In this document: piece by piece, positions 4,094 through 29,215 of the stretch | Layout of the letters: every line of letters starts with the position of its first letter | Numbering within the stretch: position 1 is the first letter of the stretch | Made by a program: the position numbers and the translations under genes | Notes under the pieces: model-generated | The model's database searches: none | What the model was told of the DNA's origin: nothing | What the model saw: the letters and a program-made list of their open reading frames with translations, nothing else | Assembly (NCBI GenBank): GCA_027485145.1 | Contig: JAIXRO010000051.1 | Coordinates: 1-33,328 of the forward strand | From: Hyphomonadaceae bacterium | Lineage (GTDB): Bacteria > Pseudomonadota > Alphaproteobacteria > Caulobacterales > Hyphomonadaceae | DNA length: 33,328 nucleotides | Direction of reading: 5' to 3'

Positions 4094-6520
4094 ATGAAAA
4101 CCAGATTTTCGCTGCTCTGCAGCGCCAGCTTCGTAACCATCTGCCTCAGCGCCGCCATGGCCGCATCGGCACAGACGGCGCCTGCGCCGGCCACCGAAGA
4201 CGAGGAAGCCCTCCGCCGCGCCGAAACGGTCGTGGTCCAGGGCGGCATCACGTACCGCAACCGTACAGAAGCGACCGAACCGACGCTCGAATACGGCCAG
4301 GACTACTTCCAGCGCTTCGAGCCGCTGACCGCCGGTGACGCCCTGAAGCGCGTGCCTTCGGTCACCTTCCTGTCGGACGTGATCGAAAGCGACGGCGCCC
4401 GCCTGCGCGGCCTGGATCCTGGCTACACGCAGATCCTCATCAACGGCGAAAAAGTTCCGGGCAGCAACGCGGACCGCTCCTTCTTCCTCGACCGTATTCC
4501 GGCCGAACTGATCGACCGCGTCGAAATCGTCCGCTCCTCCTCCGCGCGCCGCTCGGGCGATGCGCTTGCTGGCACATTGAACATCGTGCTGCGCGACGGC
4601 TACGAGCTTGACGGCGGCTACCTGCGCGCCGGCGCCCTGCGTTTCGATGACGGCGAGTTCAAGGAAAGCCTCGGCGGCGTCTATGGCGGTGAGATGGGCC
4701 CCGGCCGTATCATTCTCGGCGCCAACCTCCAGGGCCGCTACAACCCGAAACTCAAAAAGTCGCTGCGCTATGGCGACAGCCCGGAAAACAATCCGGATTT
4801 CCGCGACGACGATTTCGACAACCGCGAAGACCAGACGGACACCCGCGACGGCACGGATTATTCGTTCAACGCCGAATACTCGATCGACGAGGCAGACTAC
4901 GATTTCGATATCGGCGGCTTCTACGTCTTCACCGACCGGACCGAAACCGAGCGGTCTTTCGAATACGATGACCCGACCGCCATCACCGGCCCGCTGCCGG
5001 ACGGCAACCTCCTGACCGACAACTCGAACGTCAACGGCATCGAGCAGACAAACTACAGCCTGCGCAGCCGCTACGAGCGCGACTGGTCGCTCGGCGAAAC
5101 CGTGTTCAAGCTGGGCTTCGCCAAGTTCGAAGACGACCAGACGGAATATGAAGAGGAAATCGATTTCGACGTCGATTACGATGACGATGAAGTGCCGGTG
5201 CTCGAAGGCGAAACCTTCACGACCGCCATCGTGGACGAGGAAACCTCGGCCGAGATCGCTCACAAGTTCGACGTGTTCGAAAATTCGACGCTTGAGTTCG
5301 GCTTGTTCTATCAGTCGAAAGAGCGCTCGACCGCCATTCTTGCGGCTGAGGACGAAGACGAACTGGACTCGCTGACCGGGTACGATCAGTTCCGCAATCG
5401 CCCCGAAGAGTTTGGCCTCACCTATGTGGATTTTGAGCCCATCGCGGGCGGCCTCAGCGATCTTGAAGAAGACCGTCTCGACGGCTTCGTGGTGCTCAAC
5501 GGAGAGACCGGCCGCATCGCCTGGGAAACCGGCGTTCGCTACGAAACGACCGACGTCACGATCAACGACCAGACTGCAGATGACGACCTGCAGAATGTCG
5601 AAAACGACTACGCGTTCTTCCTCCCGTCGGCGCACCTCAAGTTCGACGTCACCGATGCCGACCGCCTGACCTTCTCGGTTGCCCGTACGCTTCGCCGCCC
5701 GAACTTCAACTTCGTCTCGCCCGCCCTTCTGGAAGGCGAGTTCGGCGACAACGACTTCATTGGCAACCCGGGCCTCGAGCCGGAAAACGCCTGGGGTCTC
5801 GACGTGGGTTATGAGCGCCGCCTCGGCAAGTCGGGCGTGTTCGGCGTCAACGTGTTCTACCGGGATGTCAAAGACCTCGTGGAAGTCACCAATACCGGCG
5901 CCCCCTCCGATGCCTATTGCGGTGATTTCGAAGATGATGAAGGCTTCACCTGCGACCAGGCGCTTGCGGGCAATGCGGCCGCTCTCGCTGTCTTCGATCC
6001 GGACTCGTTCGTCCTGACACCCCAGAACGTCGGCGACGGAAAAGTGTACGGCATCGAGTTTGACCTCTCGACTCCGCTGACCAGCTTCGGCCTGCCGAAC
6101 ACCGGTGTGTTCGCCAACGTCTCTTTGCTCGACAGCGAGATCGAAGACTTCGCCGGTGAGCGCCGCTTCAACGACCAGTCGGAGTTCGTCTACAACTTCG
6201 GCTTCGTCCACGACCTGCCGGAACTCGCCGCCGCTTTCGGTGCCACCTATCGCAAACAGGGCGACGCTTTCGGCCGGATCGCCGCTGAAGAAGTCACCAC
6301 TTCGTACGGTGCTGACCTCGAAGTCTTCATCGAGAAGAGCCTTGGCGAACGCTTCACGATCCGCGCAGTCGGTTCGAATCTCCTGAACACCAAGAAGGAA
6401 GAAGTCTTCAACAAGTTCGACACGATCGGTGACCAACTCGATCGCGACTTCGACGAATACGAACTCGAATCCGAAGAAGCCGGTCCGGTCTTCCAGGTGA
6501 TCGCGCGTTACGCCTTCTGA
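4094..6520 (+). CDS. TonB-dependent outer membrane receptor, probably for phytate or its breakdown products
   Basis: An 808-residue TonB-dependent transporter for active uptake across the outer membrane. It has a signal peptide (cleavage near ASA, residues 24-26), a TonB-box-like ETVVVQG (44-50), and a plug domain at about 60-180 with LINGEKVPGSNADRSFFLDR and DRVEIVRSSSARRSGDALAG. A long 22-strand-type barrel follows, including the family signatures FSVARTLRRPNFNF, NPGLEPENAWGLDVGYERR and the C-terminal VIARYAF ending in phenylalanine. Extracellular-loop regions are strongly acidic (for example DFDVDYDDDEVPVLEGE), which might suit calcium-bound substrate. The gene is divergent from the phytase and followed at once by a terminator, so it is monocistronic. 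The substrate assignment is inference from the phytase neighbour and the putative PhoB box. Confidence 0.93.
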   Translation: MKTRFSLLCSASFVTICLSAAMAASAQTAPAPATEDEEALRRAETVVVQGGITYRNRTEATEPTLEYGQDYFQRFEPLTAGDALKRVPSVTFLSDVIESDGARLRGLDPGYTQILINGEKVPGSNADRSFFLDRIPAELIDRVEIVRSSSARRSGDALAGTLNIVLRDGYELDGGYLRAGALRFDDGEFKESLGGVYGGEMGPGRIILGANLQGRYNPKLKKSLRYGDSPENNPDFRDDDFDNREDQTDTRDGTDYSFNAEYSIDEADYDFDIGGFYVFTDRTETERSFEYDDPTAITGPLPDGNLLTDNSNVNGIEQTNYSLRSRYERDWSLGETVFKLGFAKFEDDQTEYEEEIDFDVDYDDDEVPVLEGETFTTAIVDEETSAEIAHKFDVFENSTLEFGLFYQSKERSTAILAAEDEDELDSLTGYDQFRNRPEEFGLTYVDFEPIAGGLSDLEEDRLDGFVVLNGETGRIAWETGVRYETTDVTINDQTADDDLQNVENDYAFFLPSAHLKFDVTDADRLTFSVARTLRRPNFNFVSPALLEGEFGDNDFIGNPGLEPENAWGLDVGYERRLGKSGVFGVNVFYRDVKDLVEVTNTGAPSDAYCGDFEDDEGFTCDQALAGNAAALAVFDPDSFVLTPQNVGDGKVYGIEFDLSTPLTSFGLPNTGVFANVSLLDSEIEDFAGERRFNDQSEFVYNFGFVHDLPELAAAFGATYRKQGDAFGRIAAEEVTTSYGADLEVFIEKSLGERFTIRAVGSNLLNTKKEEVFNKFDTIGDQLDRDFDEYELESEEAGPVFQVIARYAF

Positions 6521-7624: not shown

Positions 7625-8041
7625 ATGATCGTCTGCACCTGCCGCGCGCTGTCCCAGGCCACCCGAAGGGTTCACCGGCTCTACGATGCGGCCCTCGCGC
7701 CGCTCGGCCTGACCATCGGTCAGTTCAGCCTGCTCTCGCAGATCCGCACCTCGCCTGGACAGACGCTGATGGAACTCGCCACCCGGAACATCATGGACCC
7801 TTCGACTGTTTCGCGCCTCCTCCGGCCGCTGATTGCGCGCGGACTGGTCGAGACGCTTGTCGACGCTGAGGACCGCCGCACACGCCGGGTGCGCCTGACC
7901 GAAGAGGGTGCGCGGCTCCAGGCCGAGGGCGTGCCCAAATGGAAAGCCGCCCAGGCGGGCCTCGAAGCCGCCATCGGCAGCACGGCCAACGCCGACCTGC
8001 GCGCCCTGCTGGGCACTGTCATCACAACCCTCGCGGACTGA
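7625..8041 (+). CDS. MarR family winged-helix transcriptional regulator
   Basis: A 138-residue MarR-type dimeric DNA-binding regulator, usually a ligand-relieved repressor. The N-terminal helix (LSQATRRVHRLYDAALAPLGLTIGQFSLL) matches the MarR dimerisation and ligand region. The wing-helix core follows: QTLMELATRNIMDPSTVSRLLRPLIARGLVE is the helix-turn-helix, and DAEDRRTRRVRLTEEG is the wing with its conserved D-x-R-x-x-x-V-x-LT pattern. The gene lies 37 bases upstream of a porin gene on the same strand, suggesting that it controls that gene and itself. Candidate operator sequences are at 7570 and 8080. The inducing ligand is unknown. A cysteine pair at residues 4 and 6 (VCTCR) could in principle sense oxidants, but that is speculative. 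Confidence 0.92.
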   Translation: MIVCTCRALSQATRRVHRLYDAALAPLGLTIGQFSLLSQIRTSPGQTLMELATRNIMDPSTVSRLLRPLIARGLVETLVDAEDRRTRRVRLTEEGARLQAEGVPKWKAAQAGLEAAIGSTANADLRALLGTVITTLAD

Positions 8042-8078
8042 TCCGATCGTGTCCCACCAACGTGCCGGAACTGAAAAC

Positions 8079-9458
8079 ATGCAATTACATCTGTCCTTGT
8101 CCTGCGCATTGGTGTTTGCCTTGGCGCCTGACGCCCTGGCGCAGGCCACATCTGCCCTGCCCACGGCCGAGTCCACGCTCAAGCCCGACCGGTGGCTTGA
8201 AGACTGGCGCTGGGTCGATGCGGCAGATGAGGCGGCGCCGCCGCTCAAGAATCTGCCGTTGGGCCCCGACGGCACCTGGCGACTCACCCTCGGCGGCGAA
8301 GGCCGCGTCCGCGCCGAAACCCGCGATCCGGTGGAATTCGGGATCGGCAATCTGGACGCTGTCACGGCCGTCAATTTCCGCGGCCTCGTGCATGCCCATG
8401 CAGAGCTCGGTCCGAATGTGCGCCTCTTCGTTCAGGCCGGCAGTTGGGGCCAGCAGGGGCGGGACGTGCCGCGCATCTTCGACGAGGCCGAGTTTGCCGT
8501 TCAGCGCGCCTTTGCCGACGTGACGCTGACGCCCGAAACCTCGCTTCGCCTCGGCCGGCAGGACCTCTACAAGTCCTCCTCGCGGCTGCTTTTCCCGGTC
8601 GATATCTTCAACTACCAGCTCGTCCATGATGCCGCCGCGGTCCGCTACAAATCCGGCCCCGTGCGCGCGCAGGCATTCCACGGCGAGCGGTTCCTGACCG
8701 GGCCGGGCGTGCTGGAGCCCCGCGATCTCGGGGGCGAAACAGTCACCGGCCTGTTCTACGAGCGCACCTTCGAAGCCCTGCCGGGATACGATTTCGGCGC
8801 CTTCGTCCTGCATCAGGAAACCGATCTCGGCGCTTTCCCCCGCCGGCGCGGTCCCGAGACGCGCACCAGCTGGATCGTGCGCGGCGCGCGCAAAACCGGC
8901 CCTTGGACGATCTCGGCTGAGGCCGCAGTCCAATCCGGGCAGGCACCGGGCGCAGATATCTCGGCCTGGGCGTTCGCGACCGAGATCATTCGCAAGCTGG
9001 ACGCGCCCGGAAATCCGGCGATGACCCTGCGGATCGATGGCGCCTCCGGGGATGATGCGGCGACACCGGAGCGCGAAACCTGGGCCACACTCGCCCCGAT
9101 CATGGGCTATCTCGGCCGCACGGGGGACTATGCCGCCACCAATGTGATCGGCGTCTATCCCGATCTCGCCATCGACGCTGCGCCGGACCTGCGCCTGTCG
9201 ATGGGCGGCGAAGTCAGCTGGCGGGCCTCCGGCACCGCCGGCATCGGCGCGCCGGGCGGGGCGGCAGCGTACCTGCCGGCGGGTGCGCCCGGAGACGGCC
9301 CGATCCTCTACGGCGCGATCCTCAAGGGCCGCTGGGCACCGTCTGCCCGCTGGGATATCAATGGTGAACTGACCTGGCTCGAACCAGCGGGCGCGCTCAA
9401 GGATTTCGGCGGCGAGGGCCGCCTCAACGCGGTGCTCAGCCTGACCACCCGCTTCTGA
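8079..9458 (+). CDS. Alginate-export (AlgE-like) family outer membrane porin
   Basis: A 459-residue outer-membrane beta-barrel of the alginate_exp family, whose members include AlgE-type export channels and many putative porins for organic anions or oligosaccharides. The start at 8079 (MQLHLSLSCALVFALAPDALAQA) gives a clean signal peptide cut after ALA; upstream in-frame codons overlap the marR gene and look non-coding. Family-typical segments are DWRWVDAAD, TLGGEGRVRAETRD, NVRLFVQAGSWGQQGRDVPR, EFAVQRAFADV, LRLGRQDLYKSSSRLLFPVD and the terminal LSLTTRF ending in phenylalanine. No alginate biosynthesis genes are nearby, so alginate itself is unlikely to be proven. Location just behind a MarR gene, with an operator-like motif across its start codon, suggests inducible expression. 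Confidence 0.85.
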   Translation: MQLHLSLSCALVFALAPDALAQATSALPTAESTLKPDRWLEDWRWVDAADEAAPPLKNLPLGPDGTWRLTLGGEGRVRAETRDPVEFGIGNLDAVTAVNFRGLVHAHAELGPNVRLFVQAGSWGQQGRDVPRIFDEAEFAVQRAFADVTLTPETSLRLGRQDLYKSSSRLLFPVDIFNYQLVHDAAAVRYKSGPVRAQAFHGERFLTGPGVLEPRDLGGETVTGLFYERTFEALPGYDFGAFVLHQETDLGAFPRRRGPETRTSWIVRGARKTGPWTISAEAAVQSGQAPGADISAWAFATEIIRKLDAPGNPAMTLRIDGASGDDAATPERETWATLAPIMGYLGRTGDYAATNVIGVYPDLAIDAAPDLRLSMGGEVSWRASGTAGIGAPGGAAAYLPAGAPGDGPILYGAILKGRWAPSARWDINGELTWLEPAGALKDFGGEGRLNAVLSLTTRF

Positions 9459-11818: not shown

Positions 11819-12640
11819 TCAGGGCTCCGCCGCCTCGCTGCGGCTGAGATTGCGGAAGTCAATCCCGGCGGCTTCGGGGCCATGGCCGTGATCATCCAGC
11901 ACGCCATGCTCGTGGATCGGCAGCGCCAGGACCGCGAGTGCAAACAGGACACCTGCGCCCAGCGATCCCATCGCCCGCAATGGTGAGACCTCTTTCAGGG
12001 GCTCCATCATCGGCCCGGTTGCGACGTAGATGAGCAGTCCGGCCGACAAGGCATACAGCGCCGTGAGGGTGCCTTCGCCGAGCCCGCTCACGAACAGTCC
12101 GGACACCAGCGCGCCCAGCGGCGTCGTCGCGGCGGCGGCAATGAAGGCCCAGACGAGCGCTTCCTTCACCTTGAAGCCATGCCGCGAGAGAATAGCGAAG
12201 GCGATGATGCCTTCGGCAAACTCATGCAGGATCAGACCGAGCGAGGCATAGACTCCGGACTGGAAACTCGCCGCGAACGAGACCGAATAGATCACGCCGT
12301 CGAAAAATGAGTGGACGCCCACAGCGAGCAGGGGCGTGAAGGCCTCCGCCCGGGCCTGCCCGGCGCCTTCGGGAAAGAAGGTCCGCATCGCGAAACTGAG
12401 CAGAAGTCCGGCGAAGAAACCGCCCAGCACGAATCGCGCCGCGCCGTGTCCCGCGCCGAGGGCTTCCGGCGCGATATGCAACAAGCTCATCGTTATCAGC
12501 ATGCCGCCCGCCGCCAGCGCAAACAGGCCCGACTGGCGCGCCGACCATTCGCTGCGCAGCGCAACGGCGAGAAGACCAAGCGAGGTCACCAGCGCCGCCA
12601 GCAGGCCAAACGAAACGGAGGCCTGTAGGGAAAAGGGCAT
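11819..12640 (-). CDS. ZIP family metal (zinc) transporter
   Basis: A 273-residue inner-membrane ZIP (ZupT-like) permease that takes up divalent metal, most often zinc. About eight hydrophobic segments are seen. The metal-site helices are explicit: HSFFDG (His110) in the fourth helix and HEFAEG (His139) in the fifth, the binuclear metal-binding motifs of the family. A histidine-rich C-terminal segment (HEHGVLDDHGHGPE) after the last helix could bind metal. The gene is divergent from an operon resembling the Zrg zinc-import system, and a Zur-like palindrome lies 63 bases upstream of its start. This strongly suggests zinc as substrate, induced under zinc starvation. It ends 12 bases from the convergent phaZ stop. 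Confidence 0.92.
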   Translation of the reverse strand: MPFSLQASVSFGLLAALVTSLGLLAVALRSEWSARQSGLFALAAGGMLITMSLLHIAPEALGAGHGAARFVLGGFFAGLLLSFAMRTFFPEGAGQARAEAFTPLLAVGVHSFFDGVIYSVSFAASFQSGVYASLGLILHEFAEGIIAFAILSRHGFKVKEALVWAFIAAAATTPLGALVSGLFVSGLGEGTLTALYALSAGLLIYVATGPMMEPLKEVSPLRAMGSLGAGVLFALAVLALPIHEHGVLDDHGHGPEAAGIDFRNLSRSEAAEP

Positions 12641-12702
12641 CGGCGGAACGGTCCTGCTGGCAAGGTGCGCACGGTTGCCCGTCGTCCGGGAGGTGCTTGC
12701 GA

Positions 12703-12720
12703 GAATTGTTATAATGTTTC
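12703..12720. promoter_or_regulatory. Putative Zur (zinc uptake repressor) box over a -10 element
   Basis: GAATTGTTATAATGTTTC is an 18-bp imperfect palindrome: outer GAA/TTC and inner TTATAA are symmetric (12 of 18 bases). The core TGTTATAA-type sequence resembles known Zur boxes. It contains TATAAT (12710-12715), so a bound repressor would mask the plus-strand -10. It lies between the divergent ZIP gene and the DUF2796 operon. Zur binding is inference. Confidence 0.6.
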
Positions 12721-12789
12721 AATATGGGCTTGGCGAGCGGAATCTCACCGCTTATGCCAAGTGCTTGCCCTGACCTCCCGGAGCCGCCC

Positions 12790-13383
12790 ATGACCGTACC
12801 CGCTGTCCGCCTGTTCCTCGCCGCATCCGCTGTCGCCCTCATCGCCGCCTGCGGTGGCCCCAAGCCGGAGCCTGTGCCTGCCCCGGCAGATGCGGCTATG
12901 GACGCTGCAACCGGCGAAGACGCCGCAGCGCCCGAGGCGCCTGCCGAAGACCATGCGCATGACGGCGAAGCCGAAGCCGGCGGCGAAGCCCATGTCCACG
13001 GCCTCGCAGACCTTGCGATCACGCGCGAGGGCAACAGGTTCATGGGTGAGCTGATCTCGCCGATGGCCAATTTTGGCCTTTCGGAAACCGATGCGGCGTA
13101 CACGGATGTTGTGACCGCCGAACTGTCCGGTCTCGTCGAGGTGGACGGCGGAGACTGCCAGGCGGGCGTTCCGCATCCGATGACGGACGATTCCGGAGAC
13201 CACACCGATGCCGTGGTTCACTTCATCTGGACCTGTGCGAAGCCCGATGAAGTGCGCACGGTGCGGTTTGCCGGGTTCGCGGCGTTCTCCGGCTTCGAAA
13301 AAGTCAGTACCATCTATATCACCGACGCCGAACAGAAGGCGGGTGACCTGACGCCGTCTGCGCCAGAGCTTTCGCTGAAATAA
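12790..13383 (+). CDS. DUF2796 (ZrgA-like) histidine-rich zinc-binding lipoprotein
   Basis: The likely metal-capturing component of a zinc uptake system. The start at 12790 is supported by CGGAG six bases upstream; upstream in-frame ATGs overlap the promoter. The product has 197 residues with a lipoprotein signal ending in ALIAAC (Cys21). A linker rich in Pro, Ala and Glu leads to a His/Asp/Glu cluster (EDHAHDGEAEAGGEAHVHG, about residues 56-74). The DUF2796-type core follows, with LADLAITREGNRFMGELISPMANFGL, the pattern FIWTCAKPDEVRTVRF and a C-terminal ITDAEQKAG. In Vibrio the homologous ZrgA is a periplasmic zinc-binding protein working with an ABC-type partner; here the next three genes supply that partner. 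First gene of the operon, with a Zur-like box just upstream. Confidence 0.85.
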   Translation: MTVPAVRLFLAASAVALIAACGGPKPEPVPAPADAAMDAATGEDAAAPEAPAEDHAHDGEAEAGGEAHVHGLADLAITREGNRFMGELISPMANFGLSETDAAYTDVVTAELSGLVEVDGGDCQAGVPHPMTDDSGDHTDAVVHFIWTCAKPDEVRTVRFAGFAAFSGFEKVSTIYITDAEQKAGDLTPSAPELSLK

Positions 13384-13390
13384 GCGGCGC

Positions 13391-14110
13391 ATGAGCGATC
13401 CCGTCATTGATATCGAGGACCTCACCTTCGCCTGGAAACAAGGCCCCCAGGTGCTGCACATTCCCGCATTCCGCGTCGAAGCGGGTGAGCGCGTCTTCCT
13501 GCGCGGGCCGTCCGGCTCCGGGAAGTCAACGCTGCTCGGCCTGATCGCGGGTGTCCTTGCGCCGCAGACGGGCCGCATCCGCGTCCTCGGCGAGGACATG
13601 CGCGCGCTTTCGCCGTCGCGGCGCGATCGTCTGCGGGCGGATCATGTCGGCGTGATCTTCCAGATGTTCAATCTGGTGCCTTACCTGTCGGTTACCGGGA
13701 ATGTGCTTCTGCCGCTCCGCTTCTCGCCCGCGCGCCGCAAGGCCGCAGGCAGCGATGCGACAAGCGAAGCATGCCGCCTGCTCGCCCGCCTCGGGCTTGA
13801 CGACCCATCGCTGCTGCAGCGCCGCGTCTCGGACCTTTCCGTCGGCCAGCAGCAACGCGTCGCCGCTGCCCGTGCGCTGATCGGCGCGCCTCGACTGATC
13901 ATCGCGGACGAGCCGACTTCCGCCCTCGACGCCGATGCGCGCGACCGGTTCATCGCACTGCTGTCCGAGGAAGTGACCCGCACCGGCGCCAGCCTCCTCT
14001 TCGTCAGCCATGATGCCAGCCTCGCGCCGCTCTTCACCCGCGCTGTCGATCTCGCGGCGATCAACCAGGCAAGTAGCGGGGCCAATCATCGGGCAGGGGT
14101 GCACGCATGA
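13391..14110 (+). CDS. LolD/MacB-type ABC transporter ATP-binding protein of the zinc operon
   Basis: The ATPase subunit of a type VII (MacB/LolCDE-like) ABC system. The 239 residues carry Walker A GPSGSGKST (39-47), Q-loop IFQMFNLVPYLSV (about 89-101), the signature LSVGQQQRV (149-157, in place of LSGGQ), Walker B LIIADEPTSALD (169-180) and H-loop His207 (VSHDAS). All catalytic residues are present. It starts 7 bases after the DUF2796 lipoprotein gene and overlaps the permease gene by 4 bases (ATGA), so the pair is translationally coupled. It probably uses ATP-driven conformational change to load or release zinc-binding lipoproteins, rather than acting as a classical importer; that is inference from the family. 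Confidence 0.93.
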   Translation: MSDPVIDIEDLTFAWKQGPQVLHIPAFRVEAGERVFLRGPSGSGKSTLLGLIAGVLAPQTGRIRVLGEDMRALSPSRRDRLRADHVGVIFQMFNLVPYLSVTGNVLLPLRFSPARRKAAGSDATSEACRLLARLGLDDPSLLQRRVSDLSVGQQQRVAAARALIGAPRLIIADEPTSALDADARDRFIALLSEEVTRTGASLLFVSHDASLAPLFTRAVDLAAINQASSGANHRAGVHA

Positions 14111-15375
14111 CCGCGCTCTTCTCCCTCGCCTGGGCGAGCCTTCTCAACCGCAAAGGCTCGATCATCCTCACCATCGTCGCGGTAGCGCTCTCGGTCGCGC
14201 TATTCCTTGGCGTCGAGAAAGCGCGCAGCGGCGCGCGCGAAGGCTTCGGCAACACGATATCCGGAACGGACCTGATCATCGGGGCGCCGACCGGTTCGGT
14301 GAACTTGCTGCTTTACTCCGTGTTCCGGATGGGCGGCGCCACGGCGGAAGTCTCCTGGCCCACCTACCAGAAGATCGCCGCACGCGAGGACATCGCCTGG
14401 ACCGTGCCGATCGCCCTCGGCGACAGCCATCTCGGCTACCGCGTGATGGGCACGAACCTCGACTATTTCAAACACTACAAGTTCGGCGGCGGACAGGCGC
14501 TGACCTTCGCCGAAGGCCAGCCCTTCGATGATCTCTTCGATGCCGTCATCGGCTCGGAAGTCGCGCGCGAGCTTGGTTACACGCTCGACACTCCGCTGAC
14601 CCTGTCGCACGGCCTCGGCGCCGCTGATCTCGGCTCGGGCCACGAAAACCGGCCGTTCCGCATTGCCGGCATCCTGAAGCCGACCGGCACGCCGGTTGAC
14701 CGCACCGTGCATGTCTCGCTCGAAGCGATCACGGCCATCCATGTCGGCTGGGAGACCGGCGCCAAGAACCCGCTCGCCGATACGATCCCGGAAGAGATGA
14801 TCCGGTCCTTCGACCTTACGCCGAAGACCGTCACGGCCATCTTTGCCGGGCTCGAACGCAAGGGCACGATCCTCACCACCCGCCGCGCCATCAACACCAA
14901 CCGGGGCGAGCCCCTGATGGCGATCATACCCGGTGAAGCCCTCGCCGAACTCTGGAACGTCACCTCGGTGGCCGAGCGCGCACTGCTTGCCGTTTCCGCC
15001 TTCGTCATCGCGGTCGGCCTCGTCTCGATCCTCACCTCGATCCTGTCGAGCTTGAATGAACGGCGCCGGGAGATGTCGATCCTGAGGGCAACCGGCGCGC
15101 GGCCGGGTCACATCTTCGTCCTGCTGGTGCTCGAAGCCGGGCTCGTCGGCTTCCTCGGCGCCGTGCTCGGCATTGCGCTGGTGCATGGCCTGATCGCCGT
15201 GTTCGCGCCGATGCTGCAGGCCCAGTACGGCGTCGCCTTCTCGATGGGTGCGCCGGGGCTCGTGGATCTCGCCGTGCTCGGCGCGGTCACACTTGCCTCG
15301 CTGCTGATCGGCGCCATCCCCGCGCTCACGGCCATGCGCCGCTCGCTCGCCGATGGCCTCAGCGTGCGGCTGTAA
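14107..15375 (+). CDS. FtsX-like (MacB/LolC-type) ABC permease of the zinc operon
   Basis: The 422-residue inner-membrane permease partner of the upstream ATPase. It has the canonical four-helix MacB/FtsX layout: one N-terminal helix (ILTIVAVALSVALFLGV, about residues 20-37), a large periplasmic MacB-core domain (about 38-290), then three C-terminal helices (LLAVSAFVIAVGLVSILTSIL, LLVLEAGLVGFLGAVLGIAL and LAVLGAVTLASLLIGAIPAL). The coupling-helix sequence NERRREMSILRATGARPGHIF precedes the third helix and is typical of FtsX domains contacting the ATPase. It overlaps the ATPase gene by 4 bases. Together with the two flanking lipoproteins it forms the membrane engine of the presumed zinc system. 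Confidence 0.93.
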   Translation: MTALFSLAWASLLNRKGSIILTIVAVALSVALFLGVEKARSGAREGFGNTISGTDLIIGAPTGSVNLLLYSVFRMGGATAEVSWPTYQKIAAREDIAWTVPIALGDSHLGYRVMGTNLDYFKHYKFGGGQALTFAEGQPFDDLFDAVIGSEVARELGYTLDTPLTLSHGLGAADLGSGHENRPFRIAGILKPTGTPVDRTVHVSLEAITAIHVGWETGAKNPLADTIPEEMIRSFDLTPKTVTAIFAGLERKGTILTTRRAINTNRGEPLMAIIPGEALAELWNVTSVAERALLAVSAFVIAVGLVSILTSILSSLNERRREMSILRATGARPGHIFVLLVLEAGLVGFLGAVLGIALVHGLIAVFAPMLQAQYGVAFSMGAPGLVDLAVLGAVTLASLLIGAIPALTAMRRSLADGLSVRL

Positions 15376-15428
15376 GACATGGCAAACATCTCTGGCGCCC
15401 GGCCTCTCCGCCGATTAATTAGGAACGC

Positions 15429-16157
15429 ATGATGACATCGCTCAACACCCGCACCGTGTCCGTCCTGTTCGCCCTCGTCCTTGCGGCTTGCGGCGCAGCC
15501 TCCACCACCGACACGGCTGAGGCCGCTCCGGCCAAGCCGGCCGTGAAGGCCGCGCCTGCCACGGTCCAGCCTGTCTCCGGCCCGCAGGTCGGTGACAAGA
15601 TCGGTGAAACCGCCGCTGACCGCGCCGCCGCCCGCGAGAAGAAAGCGGCTGAACGCGCTGCCGCCGCCAAGAAGCAGGATGCCGAACTCGCCGCGCGCGG
15701 CGTGAAACGGATCGGCTGGGAAGAGCTGATGCCGGAAGGGGAGGAGGAGCGCCTCGCCCAGATGTACCAGGCCCAGATGGCCATGCTTTATTCCGGCGCC
15801 GGTGTTGCCGAAGGTTCCGCCGCTGACACCATGGTGCAGGTCGGCACGTTCAACACGGTCAAGGAACTCAACGGAAAGAAGATCCGCATCCCCGGCTATA
15901 CGGTACCGTTCGAATATGGCGCCGACGCGCAGATCAAGGAGTTCCTGCTGGTCCCGTATTTCGGCGCCTGCATCCACTCGCCGCCGCCGCCGCCGAACCA
16001 GACAATCTTCGTCATCGCGGACAAGGCCATCAAGATGAAGGACCTCGCCCAGGCCGTCTGGATCGAAGGCACGATCTACACCCAGACGCAGGAAAGCGAA
16101 TTGGCGGATGCGGCCTACACGATCAAGCTGACCGGCATCGAGGAATACACCTACTGA
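15429..16157 (+). CDS. DUF3299 lipoprotein of the zinc operon
   Basis: A 242-residue lipoprotein with lipobox LVLAAC (Cys21). The start at 15429 follows an AGGA 5-9 bases upstream. After the signal comes an Ala/Pro/Lys-rich linker with a charged helical stretch (AAAREKKAAERAAAAKKQDAEL, about 70-90), which probably spans the periplasm. The DUF3299 domain begins at IGWEELMPEGEEE and includes GKKIRIPGYTVPFEY, the conserved FLLVPYFGACIHSPPPPPNQ and VWIEGTIYTQTQ. The C-x-H-x-P-P-P-P-x-N-Q motif is the family hallmark and could be a metal site. DUF3299 genes recur beside LolD/FtsX and DUF2796 genes, as here. The exact role is unknown; chaperoning zinc between lipoproteins is one possibility. Confidence 0.87.
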   Translation: MMTSLNTRTVSVLFALVLAACGAASTTDTAEAAPAKPAVKAAPATVQPVSGPQVGDKIGETAADRAAAREKKAAERAAAAKKQDAELAARGVKRIGWEELMPEGEEERLAQMYQAQMAMLYSGAGVAEGSAADTMVQVGTFNTVKELNGKKIRIPGYTVPFEYGADAQIKEFLLVPYFGACIHSPPPPPNQTIFVIADKAIKMKDLAQAVWIEGTIYTQTQESELADAAYTIKLTGIEEYTY

Positions 16158-16786
16158 GCCGCCTCGATCCCGCCGCAGTCCAGGTTGTCGCCTGGGACTT
16201 TGACGGTGTGCTGAACCGCAACATCGAGAATGGCGTGTTCGCCTGGTCGCGGCATTTCGAGCGGGACCTCGGCCTCTGCGTGCGCTCGTTCAGCGCGCAC
16301 CTGTTTGGCGGGCGGTTCCAGAAGGCGATGGTGGGCGAGGCGTGCCTGATCGATATCGTCACCGAATGGACCGAGCTCAACGGTGCGCAGGGCCGCACGC
16401 ACGAGATTATCGACTACTGGTTCCGCGCCGATGCCTTGCCTGATCCCGACACGCTGGCGATCGCCGGCGCGCTGAAGTCGCGCGGCGTCCGGAACGTGAT
16501 GGCCACCAACAACGAAGCGCAGCGCACCAATTTCATCGAGAGCGAAATGGGCTTCACCGCGCATGTCGAGCGCATCTTTGCGGCCGGCCGAATGAAGCTC
16601 GCCAAGCCCGACACGGCGTACTTTGCGCATATCGAAGACGAGTTGCAGGCCGACCCGGCGTCGATCCTGCTCGTCGATGACATGCACGAGAACATCCTCG
16701 CCGCCCGCGGACGCGGCTGGCAGGCGTTTCACTTCACCGAAGGCTCCCACGCGGCCCTCGCCGAAGCGCTCGGCCTCCAGCCCTGA
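16154..16786 (+). CDS. HAD superfamily hydrolase, probable CTG start
   Basis: A 210-residue haloacid-dehalogenase-type hydrolase, probably a small-molecule phosphatase. Motif I is WDFDGVLN (Asp15 nucleophile, Asp17), motif II is VMATNNE, motif III is the lysine in KLAKPDT, and motif IV is LLVDDMHENI; the cap region lies between about 25 and 95. Motif I lies upstream of the first standard start codon in frame (GTG 16208), so that start would delete the catalytic aspartates. No ATG, GTG or TTG exists between the preceding gene's stop and motif I. CTG at 16154 overlaps the DUF3299 stop as CTGA and has GAGGA nine bases upstream, so it is the best start. It seems co-transcribed with the zinc operon, but its substrate is unknown. 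Confidence 0.82.
   Translation: MSRLDPAAVQVVAWDFDGVLNRNIENGVFAWSRHFERDLGLCVRSFSAHLFGGRFQKAMVGEACLIDIVTEWTELNGAQGRTHEIIDYWFRADALPDPDTLAIAGALKSRGVRNVMATNNEAQRTNFIESEMGFTAHVERIFAAGRMKLAKPDTAYFAHIEDELQADPASILLVDDMHENILAARGRGWQAFHFTEGSHAALAEALGLQP

Positions 16787-29139: not shown

Positions 29140-29215
<76 letters not shown>

Follow-up and report, generated by a model that had tools for sequence, protein, structure and literature searches.

A divergent gene cluster (divergon) in a 33,328-nucleotide stretch of DNA from a Hyphomonadaceae bacterium (GenBank assembly GCA_027485145.1, contig JAIXRO010000051.1; the whole stretch is termed the window) places the gene for a ZIP-family metal permease back to back with the genes of a Zrg system, namely ZrgA, an ATP-binding cassette (ABC) ATPase and permease, and the DUF3299 protein ZrgE. 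The divergon is a real, conserved and probably Zur-controlled variant of Zrg, a zinc-starvation ABC system that is still poorly understood, and its less ordinary feature is the ZIP partner in genomes that lack a match to ZnuA. An apparent zinc switch shared by the ABC genes and ZIP, in genomes where the usual zinc importer was not found, suggests a role for the ABC part in supplying the ZIP channel with zinc and not in importing it; the supply of zinc to ZIP by the ABC/lipoprotein system would be consistent with the genome data. Judged by its families and gene order, the cluster is a Zrg system and not a new kind of system. An earlier note on this DNA had called it essentially undescribed, a description that holds for the mechanism and not for the system itself, which is known as Zrg.

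Organization of the divergon

Families, gene order, the intergenic box, zinc ligands, folds and the absence of a ZnuA match were all computed. The components of the divergon are as follows, with the codon positions of the zinc site derived from alignment:

11819..12640, minus strand: ZIP-family metal permease, 273 amino acids (PF02535, E 1.6e-14, 54.4 bits against a cut-off of 35.1)
12704..12726, between the divergent units: Zur-like operator, some 63 bp from both start codons (conserved footprint)
12790..13383, plus strand: ZrgA (DUF2796), 197 amino acids, a putative zinc-binding protein with a predicted lipid anchor (PF10986, E 4e-18)
12850..12852, plus strand: ZrgA lipobox cysteine, with Gly and not Asp as the next residue (aligned-column conservation)
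12991..13203, plus strand: ligands of ZrgA zinc site 1, from first to last (His 12991, His 12997, Glu 13084, His 13201)
13391..14110, plus strand: ABC ATPase, ZrgC type (ABC_tran, PF00005, E 1.3e-30)
14107..15375, plus strand: FtsX/MacB-type permease, ZrgB type (FtsX, PF02687, E 1.8e-18; MacB_PCD, PF12704, E 3.8e-9)
15429..16157, plus strand: DUF3299 (ZrgE type) putative lipoprotein (PF11736, E 9.6e-45, 152.5 bits)
15489-15491, plus strand: lipobox cysteine of DUF3299

The earlier note had placed ZIP divergently from a DUF2796–ATPase–FtsX–DUF3299 unit, and all of these families are matched by Pfam in the order given. Its range, 11819..16786, included these five genes together with a HAD-family gene at the far end, which was dropped as a member of the system because it is present in 20/42 loci of the genus (two others are cut before that point). 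Within the four-gene unit, the ATPase and permease genes share 4 bp, and the remaining junctions are spacers of 7 and 53 bp. The ZIP translation displays the motifs HSFFDG and HEFAEG, which belong to the metal-site helices of the family, and its comparison by sequence with solved structures gave no match at E 0.001. A PHROGs search with the two putative lipoproteins likewise returned no match.

Conservation of the ZIP–Zrg link

The genus set comprised 42 Hyphomonas genomes, the window's own genome (G000) and 41 relatives; genomes within one genus are not independent, and some sit in two collections (for example, loci L133/L033 and L162/L081). Most of the closely related named loci are likewise from Hyphomonas. 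In 41 of these 42 genomes, ZIP and zrgA lie side by side in divergent orientation; the contig of the remaining one (G001) begins inside zrgA. All five genes are found in 39, with G001, G021 and G027 cut by contig ends. The same divergent order occurs in three further Hyphomonadaceae genera (G043, G044, G048), with different flanking genes apart from an MscL gene in G044. The permease retrieved 80 named loci, some of them from these same genomes; of the 35 with a permease identity of at least 67%, 32 have an adjacent ZIP and the other three are cut. Loci recovered from 289 genomes of the class add a second family, f109, in which ZIP is divergent from zrgA in G184 and G269 (the contig of the latter stops after the ATPase gene), and these ZIPs are 33% and 37% identical to that of the window over 222 and 175 residues. 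In G075, ZIP, zrgA and zrgE stand consecutively on one strand as one apparent transcription unit (L086 4690-6905), behind a large glutamate-synthase-like open reading frame (ORF) named by eye, with the ABC pair elsewhere in the genome (L238).

The retention of the divergon in 41/42 genus genomes, in other genera and in one other family with differing flanks implies more than chance. With the single-strand unit of G075, two gene layouts connect ZIP to Zrg, and the link between ZIP and the ABC/lipoprotein cluster is supported as real.

Several observations were made alongside these comparisons. Five Hyphomonas genomes hold a second zrgA–zrgE pair with no ABC genes in the surrounding 12 kb (L073 3348-7012, L074, L075, L076, L077); a gene for a Zur paralogue stands in front of the pair, and a MerC-like gene and a gene for a ZigA-type zinc chaperone are divergent from it. 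Oceanicaulis sp. (L172 5264-7242) has an ATPase–permease pair, and neither a ZrgA nor a DUF3299 gene was detected around it. Contigs labelled Acidobacteria/Candidatus Sulfopaludibacter (L134, L135, L136, L166) encode permeases 92-95% identical to that of the window; their labels look wrong or their bins mixed.

The Zur-like operator

A single strongly conserved element recurs in the intergenic regions and occupies 12704-12726 in the window. A pattern built from them fits 37 of 41 genus regions without mismatch and four with one, a fit that is not independent since the same regions produced the pattern. Across the 42 genus genomes the pattern yields 26 sites, 25 at the divergon and one elsewhere (reversed control, one). 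With one mismatch permitted, ten genomes give 20 sites: ten at the divergon, three before receptor genes and seven elsewhere, four of which were inspected and had nothing clearly zinc-related (control, three). The three receptor boxes lie directly before apparently orthologous genes in G000, G038 and G040. The receptor of G000, the one scanned, has ZnuD as its best NCBIfam model (E 3.2e-94; 316.9 bits, below the cut-off of 950) and ZnuD 4rdr as its best solved relative (E 9.6e-50). The near-uniqueness of the box in these genomes and its recurrence before ZnuD-like genes lend it independent support.

A matrix scan of the window scores the box at 35.8, a value to be read with the box itself among the sites that made the matrix, and the next site at 1.2. 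The box keeps the GTTA half of GTTA-N5-TAAC, the Zur motif used in a Caulobacter paper (PMC4176598; this and the other papers cited are drawn on through the portions available), and in f109 the ZIP–zrgA gaps of both loci hold the canonical core; among 16 loci scanned for this core or TATC variants, the sole other match lies inside L224. With the Hyphomonas matrix, no site above 12.8, the maximum in shuffled controls that keep base composition only, was found in L079, L082, L084, L085 and L172, in the loci of G068 and G075 that hold only ABC genes, or in the neighbourhood of zur in G000. A promoter scan of 12600-12850 found nothing. G000 carries two FUR-family genes, and for the weaker of the two the top model is Zur (123.8 bits against a cut-off of 167). 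Zur control of the divergon, a guess when it was put forward in the earlier note, is now supported by the conserved box and is considered likely on these sequence patterns.

ZIP and the missing ZnuA match

ZnuA (PF01297) was matched in 0/42 genus genomes and in 0/7 other genomes of the family, in assemblies incomplete to varying degrees, and is present in 223/289 class genomes. Exactly one ZIP over the cut-off, that of the divergon, was found in 40/42 genus genomes, G001 and G037 being cut or masked at that point. ZrgA exceeds the cut-off in 21 class genomes, a count that leaves out four weaker matches, and 18 of these also have ZnuA. The three without it (G000, G007, G184) all carry the divergon; Fisher's exact probability for divergon against ZnuA absence, computed by hand, is 4/1330 (about 0.003), with two of the three genomes from one genus. 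A weak ZrgA match in G066 (27.8 bits) was not counted as Zrg, as its locus L083 has no zrg neighbour except an ATPase match.

ZrgA and ZrgE

The ZrgA of the window scores 66.4 bits against PF10986 (cut-off 27.4) and falls below the cut-off of the NCBIfam ZrgA equivalog (42.9 against 185). Its fold was found to be of the noncanonical ferredoxin-like type. Zinc site 1, as defined in the portion of PMC9820375 drawn on, is almost invariant among divergon-type proteins: the two His and the Glu are kept in 52/52 each and the last His in 51/52. The disulfide cysteines are present in the window and in 51 or 52 of the 52. DUF3299 matches the structure of PA4066 (4hsp) at E 1.1e-26. Its GAC-x-H-x-PPPP motif (15969-15977 in the window) retains the Cys and His columns in 121/121 homologues and is whole in 50/50 divergon-type and 63/72 other homologues; we know of no role assigned to it. 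The role in zinc acquisition that had been assigned to the cluster is supported.

Within the family, the lipobox cysteine is kept in 50/52 divergon-type ZrgA and 49/50 DUF3299 proteins, a few rows representing the same genome in two collections. For homologues from beyond the divergon set, a simple script marked 3/72 ZrgA as lipobox-bearing, of which one is convincing (L084 of G067, where DUF3299 bears a lipobox as well) and two are false by eye, and 12/72 DUF3299, of which about seven are convincing by eye, five of them from L073-L077. The script suffers from start-codon errors (e.g. L054, L062, L065, L066, L071, L161) and false flags (e.g. L168, L174, L176, L184, L193, L211, L215), which makes the alignment column counts the safer measure. 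The remaining outside homologues have mostly ordinary signal peptides, many of those of DUF3299 being twin-arginine-like by eye, and the ZrgA proteins of the f109 divergons (L217, L224) have no lipobox.

The ABC engine and its possible functions

ATP hydrolysis in transporters of the MacB/LolCDE class mostly serves work on the periplasmic side rather than inward ion pumping. The modelled permease matches the folds of MacB, LolE, HrtB and FtsX. The nearest NCBIfam models of the ATPase are DevA, LolD and FtsE, all below cut-off, and both equivalog levels lie above the observed scores: for LolCDE, 150.6 against 307.75 bits (LolD) and 29.2 against 362.45 (lolCE); for MacB, 29.6 (permease) and 122.3 (ATPase) against 966.

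We lean towards a relay, a Zur-repressed zinc divergon in which Zrg and ZIP act together, the ABC pair unloading or resetting ZrgA in the periplasm and ZIP providing the inward route. Under zinc shortage, Zur would leave the shared box, allowing expression of the ZIP and zrg units and of the ZnuD-like outer-membrane receptor that bears the same box. Zinc that has reached the periplasm would then bind to the conserved His/His/Glu/His site of lipid-anchored ZrgA. The MacB/LolCDE-type pair would free ZrgA of its zinc or reset it, a step in which ZrgE may serve as an adaptor, and ZIP would carry the metal across the inner membrane. In this scheme, we infer Zur binding, zinc binding by the window's ZrgA, the order of transfer and the roles of ABC and ZrgE. 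A bolder version, entertained tentatively and with some doubt, holds that the ABC pair moves no zinc at all and that ATP strips zinc off the lipid-anchored carrier for ZIP, which would have replaced ZnuABC as the inner-membrane route.

A number of observations weigh against the relay or its generality. The box of the window has two departures from TAAC in its second half, and the Hyphomonas matrix scores the sites of f109 at 9.2 (L217) and 12.6 (L224), and those of L073 and L086 at 10.1 and 11.1, all below the shuffled maximum, even if these sites sit in the expected intergenic places. G269 has both the divergon and a ZnuA match, albeit a weak one (9.9e-19) in an assembly with 10% contamination, and is the sole such case among the four divergon-bearing class genomes. 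ZIP occurs in 8/21 ZrgA-positive and 61/268 other class genomes, and ZIP near Zrg was found within the flanks of 0/45 named loci with a permease identity of at most 55% (L173 and L190 having less than 1.5 kb upstream); ZIP as a general partner of ZrgA was rejected on this weak difference and this absence. G067, from a sister family, has a full zrg operon (L084) with neither ZIP nor ZnuA by the models used, which argues against a general rule. The absence of PF01297 does not exclude other importers. According to the available portions of the Vibrio and Pseudomonas papers, V. cholerae ZrgA is essential for the zrg system as tested in a znuA deletion (PMC9820375), so that Zrg there is independent of ZnuABC, while loss of PA4065 in Pseudomonas aeruginosa gave no further fall in zinc content and PA4066 is without evident zinc-binding ability (PMC11481552).

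Three other functions of the ABC pair may be weighed against this relay. It has been proposed for V. cholerae that ZrgBC is itself a zinc importer with ZrgA as its solute-binding protein, and ZIP would then be a separate, co-regulated route. The requirement of growth in low zinc for zrgA when znuA is deleted (PMC9820375) and the location of 97% of ZrgA sequences near ABC genes (PMC7731109) speak for such an importer, as does G067 with its Zrg system lacking both ZIP and ZnuA. This reading is nevertheless judged rather unlikely: the permease has the MacB/LolE/FtsX fold, no metal-ion importer is named among the solved matches listed (50 per search), and ZrgA–ZrgE pairs stand apart from ABC genes in L073-L077, L085 and L086, though a ZrgB homologue occurs elsewhere in all three such split genomes searched (G018, G068, G075). 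Alternatively, ZrgBC could be an exporter that rids the zinc-starved cell of a metal–metallophore complex or of some unwanted metal, as argued for PA4064/PA4065 and pyochelin-cobalt from genetics and metal content in P. aeruginosa (PMC11481552), and the fold matches to MacB and the heme exporter HrtB agree with this. Export appears improbable in the divergon, where the pairing with ZIP and the missing ZnuA point to supply; moreover, Pfam searches with 19 ORFs of the window, five of which had no match, gave no MacA-type adaptor or metallophore enzyme, the remaining window genes and the rest of the genome lying outside this search.

The movement of lipoproteins by ATP was the mechanism advanced in the earlier note, with a Lol-like engine releasing or moving its two zinc-loaded lipoproteins. 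The resemblance of the permease to LolE and the lipobox cysteine on both partners in nearly all divergon-type proteins, and in G067 as well, are in keeping with it. Most relatives of the same ABC, however, have a ZrgA free of a lipobox, those of the f109 divergons included; since the same ABC serves unlipidated partners, lipoprotein movement is unlikely as its basic task and could only be a derived role. The proposal is not supported and is regarded as highly improbable.

If the bolder version of the relay is correct, ZIP in the divergon would be a passive importer assisted by ATP, which could account for the appearance of the Zrg family as an importer in Vibrio and as an exporter in Pseudomonas. 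The function of Zrg is disputed in print between a zinc importer in V. cholerae and a pyochelin-cobalt exporter in P. aeruginosa, as presented in the available portions of PMC9820375 and PMC11481552. Hyphomonas offers a cleaner test of this function because it has no ZnuA match, one ZIP over the cut-off and zrg under one apparent operator; in this setting, loss of ZIP alone would separate the ABC pair from the channel as the zinc carrier.

Neighbouring features

Other features of the window comprise the following:

4094-6517: TonB-dependent receptor gene
7908-9455: alginate-export-type outer-membrane protein gene
16208-16786: HAD-family gene, outside the system
29140-29215: tRNA-Ala (GGC)

No high-scoring Zur-like box was found near the TonB-dependent receptor gene or the alginate-export-type gene.

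Comparison with known systems

ZnuD is an outer-membrane zinc receptor, and the ZnuD-like gene with the same operator lies elsewhere in the genome, not in the window, its product remaining below the NCBIfam ZnuD cut-off. LolCDE and MacB share the permease architecture, whereas their NCBIfam cut-offs are not reached and the ABC pair of the divergon is accompanied by a zinc-site protein and DUF3299. The Zur regulon of Caulobacter crescentus (znuGHI, znuK-M) has the same alphaproteobacterial box with GTTA-N5-TAAC spacing and differs in its transporter, which is of the ABC-2 type; a control search of Caulobacter vibrioides gave no PF01297 match and no ZrgA.

The closest counterpart is ZrgABCDE of Vibrio (zrgA, VC2552), which shares with the divergon the family and fold of ZrgA, a permease of FtsX/MacB type, an ATPase and a DUF3299 protein, and which is Zur-controlled. 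Hyphomonas differs in the lipoboxes on ZrgA and ZrgE, the lack of a long central His-rich loop in ZrgA, the divergent ZIP and the absence of a ZnuA match; ZrgD (DUF2607) is reported in the available text as missing in some Vibrionaceae (PMC9817125). The same source describes strong induction in low zinc of an operon in Vibrio parahaemolyticus that contains genes for DUF2796 and DUF3299 proteins. The genes PA4063-PA4066 of P. aeruginosa are the identical four in the same order, with PA4064/PA4065 a described MacB-type pair; the difference lies in the pyochelin-cobalt export proposed for them and in ZIP linkage, of which the accessible portion of the source makes no mention. The earlier contrast between the engine of the divergon and that of Vibrio Zrg is refuted by these descriptions: ZrgB of V. 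cholerae is a predicted four-helix permease similar to MacB (PMC9820375), and PA4064/PA4065 is called a MacB transporter, with mechanotransmission mentioned (PMC11481552). The consulted part of the ZrgA survey that reports the neighbouring ABC genes does not mention ZIP (PMC7731109), and no publication linking ZIP to Zrg was found in the open-licence literature. A further parallel is provided by the Ang-1-HupE/UreJ-2 'anglerases', which, in the passages available, are fused, bind copper and nickel and are described with no mention of an ABC partner, and which, like the divergon, would present a domain of ZrgA-like fold to an inner-membrane metal permease.

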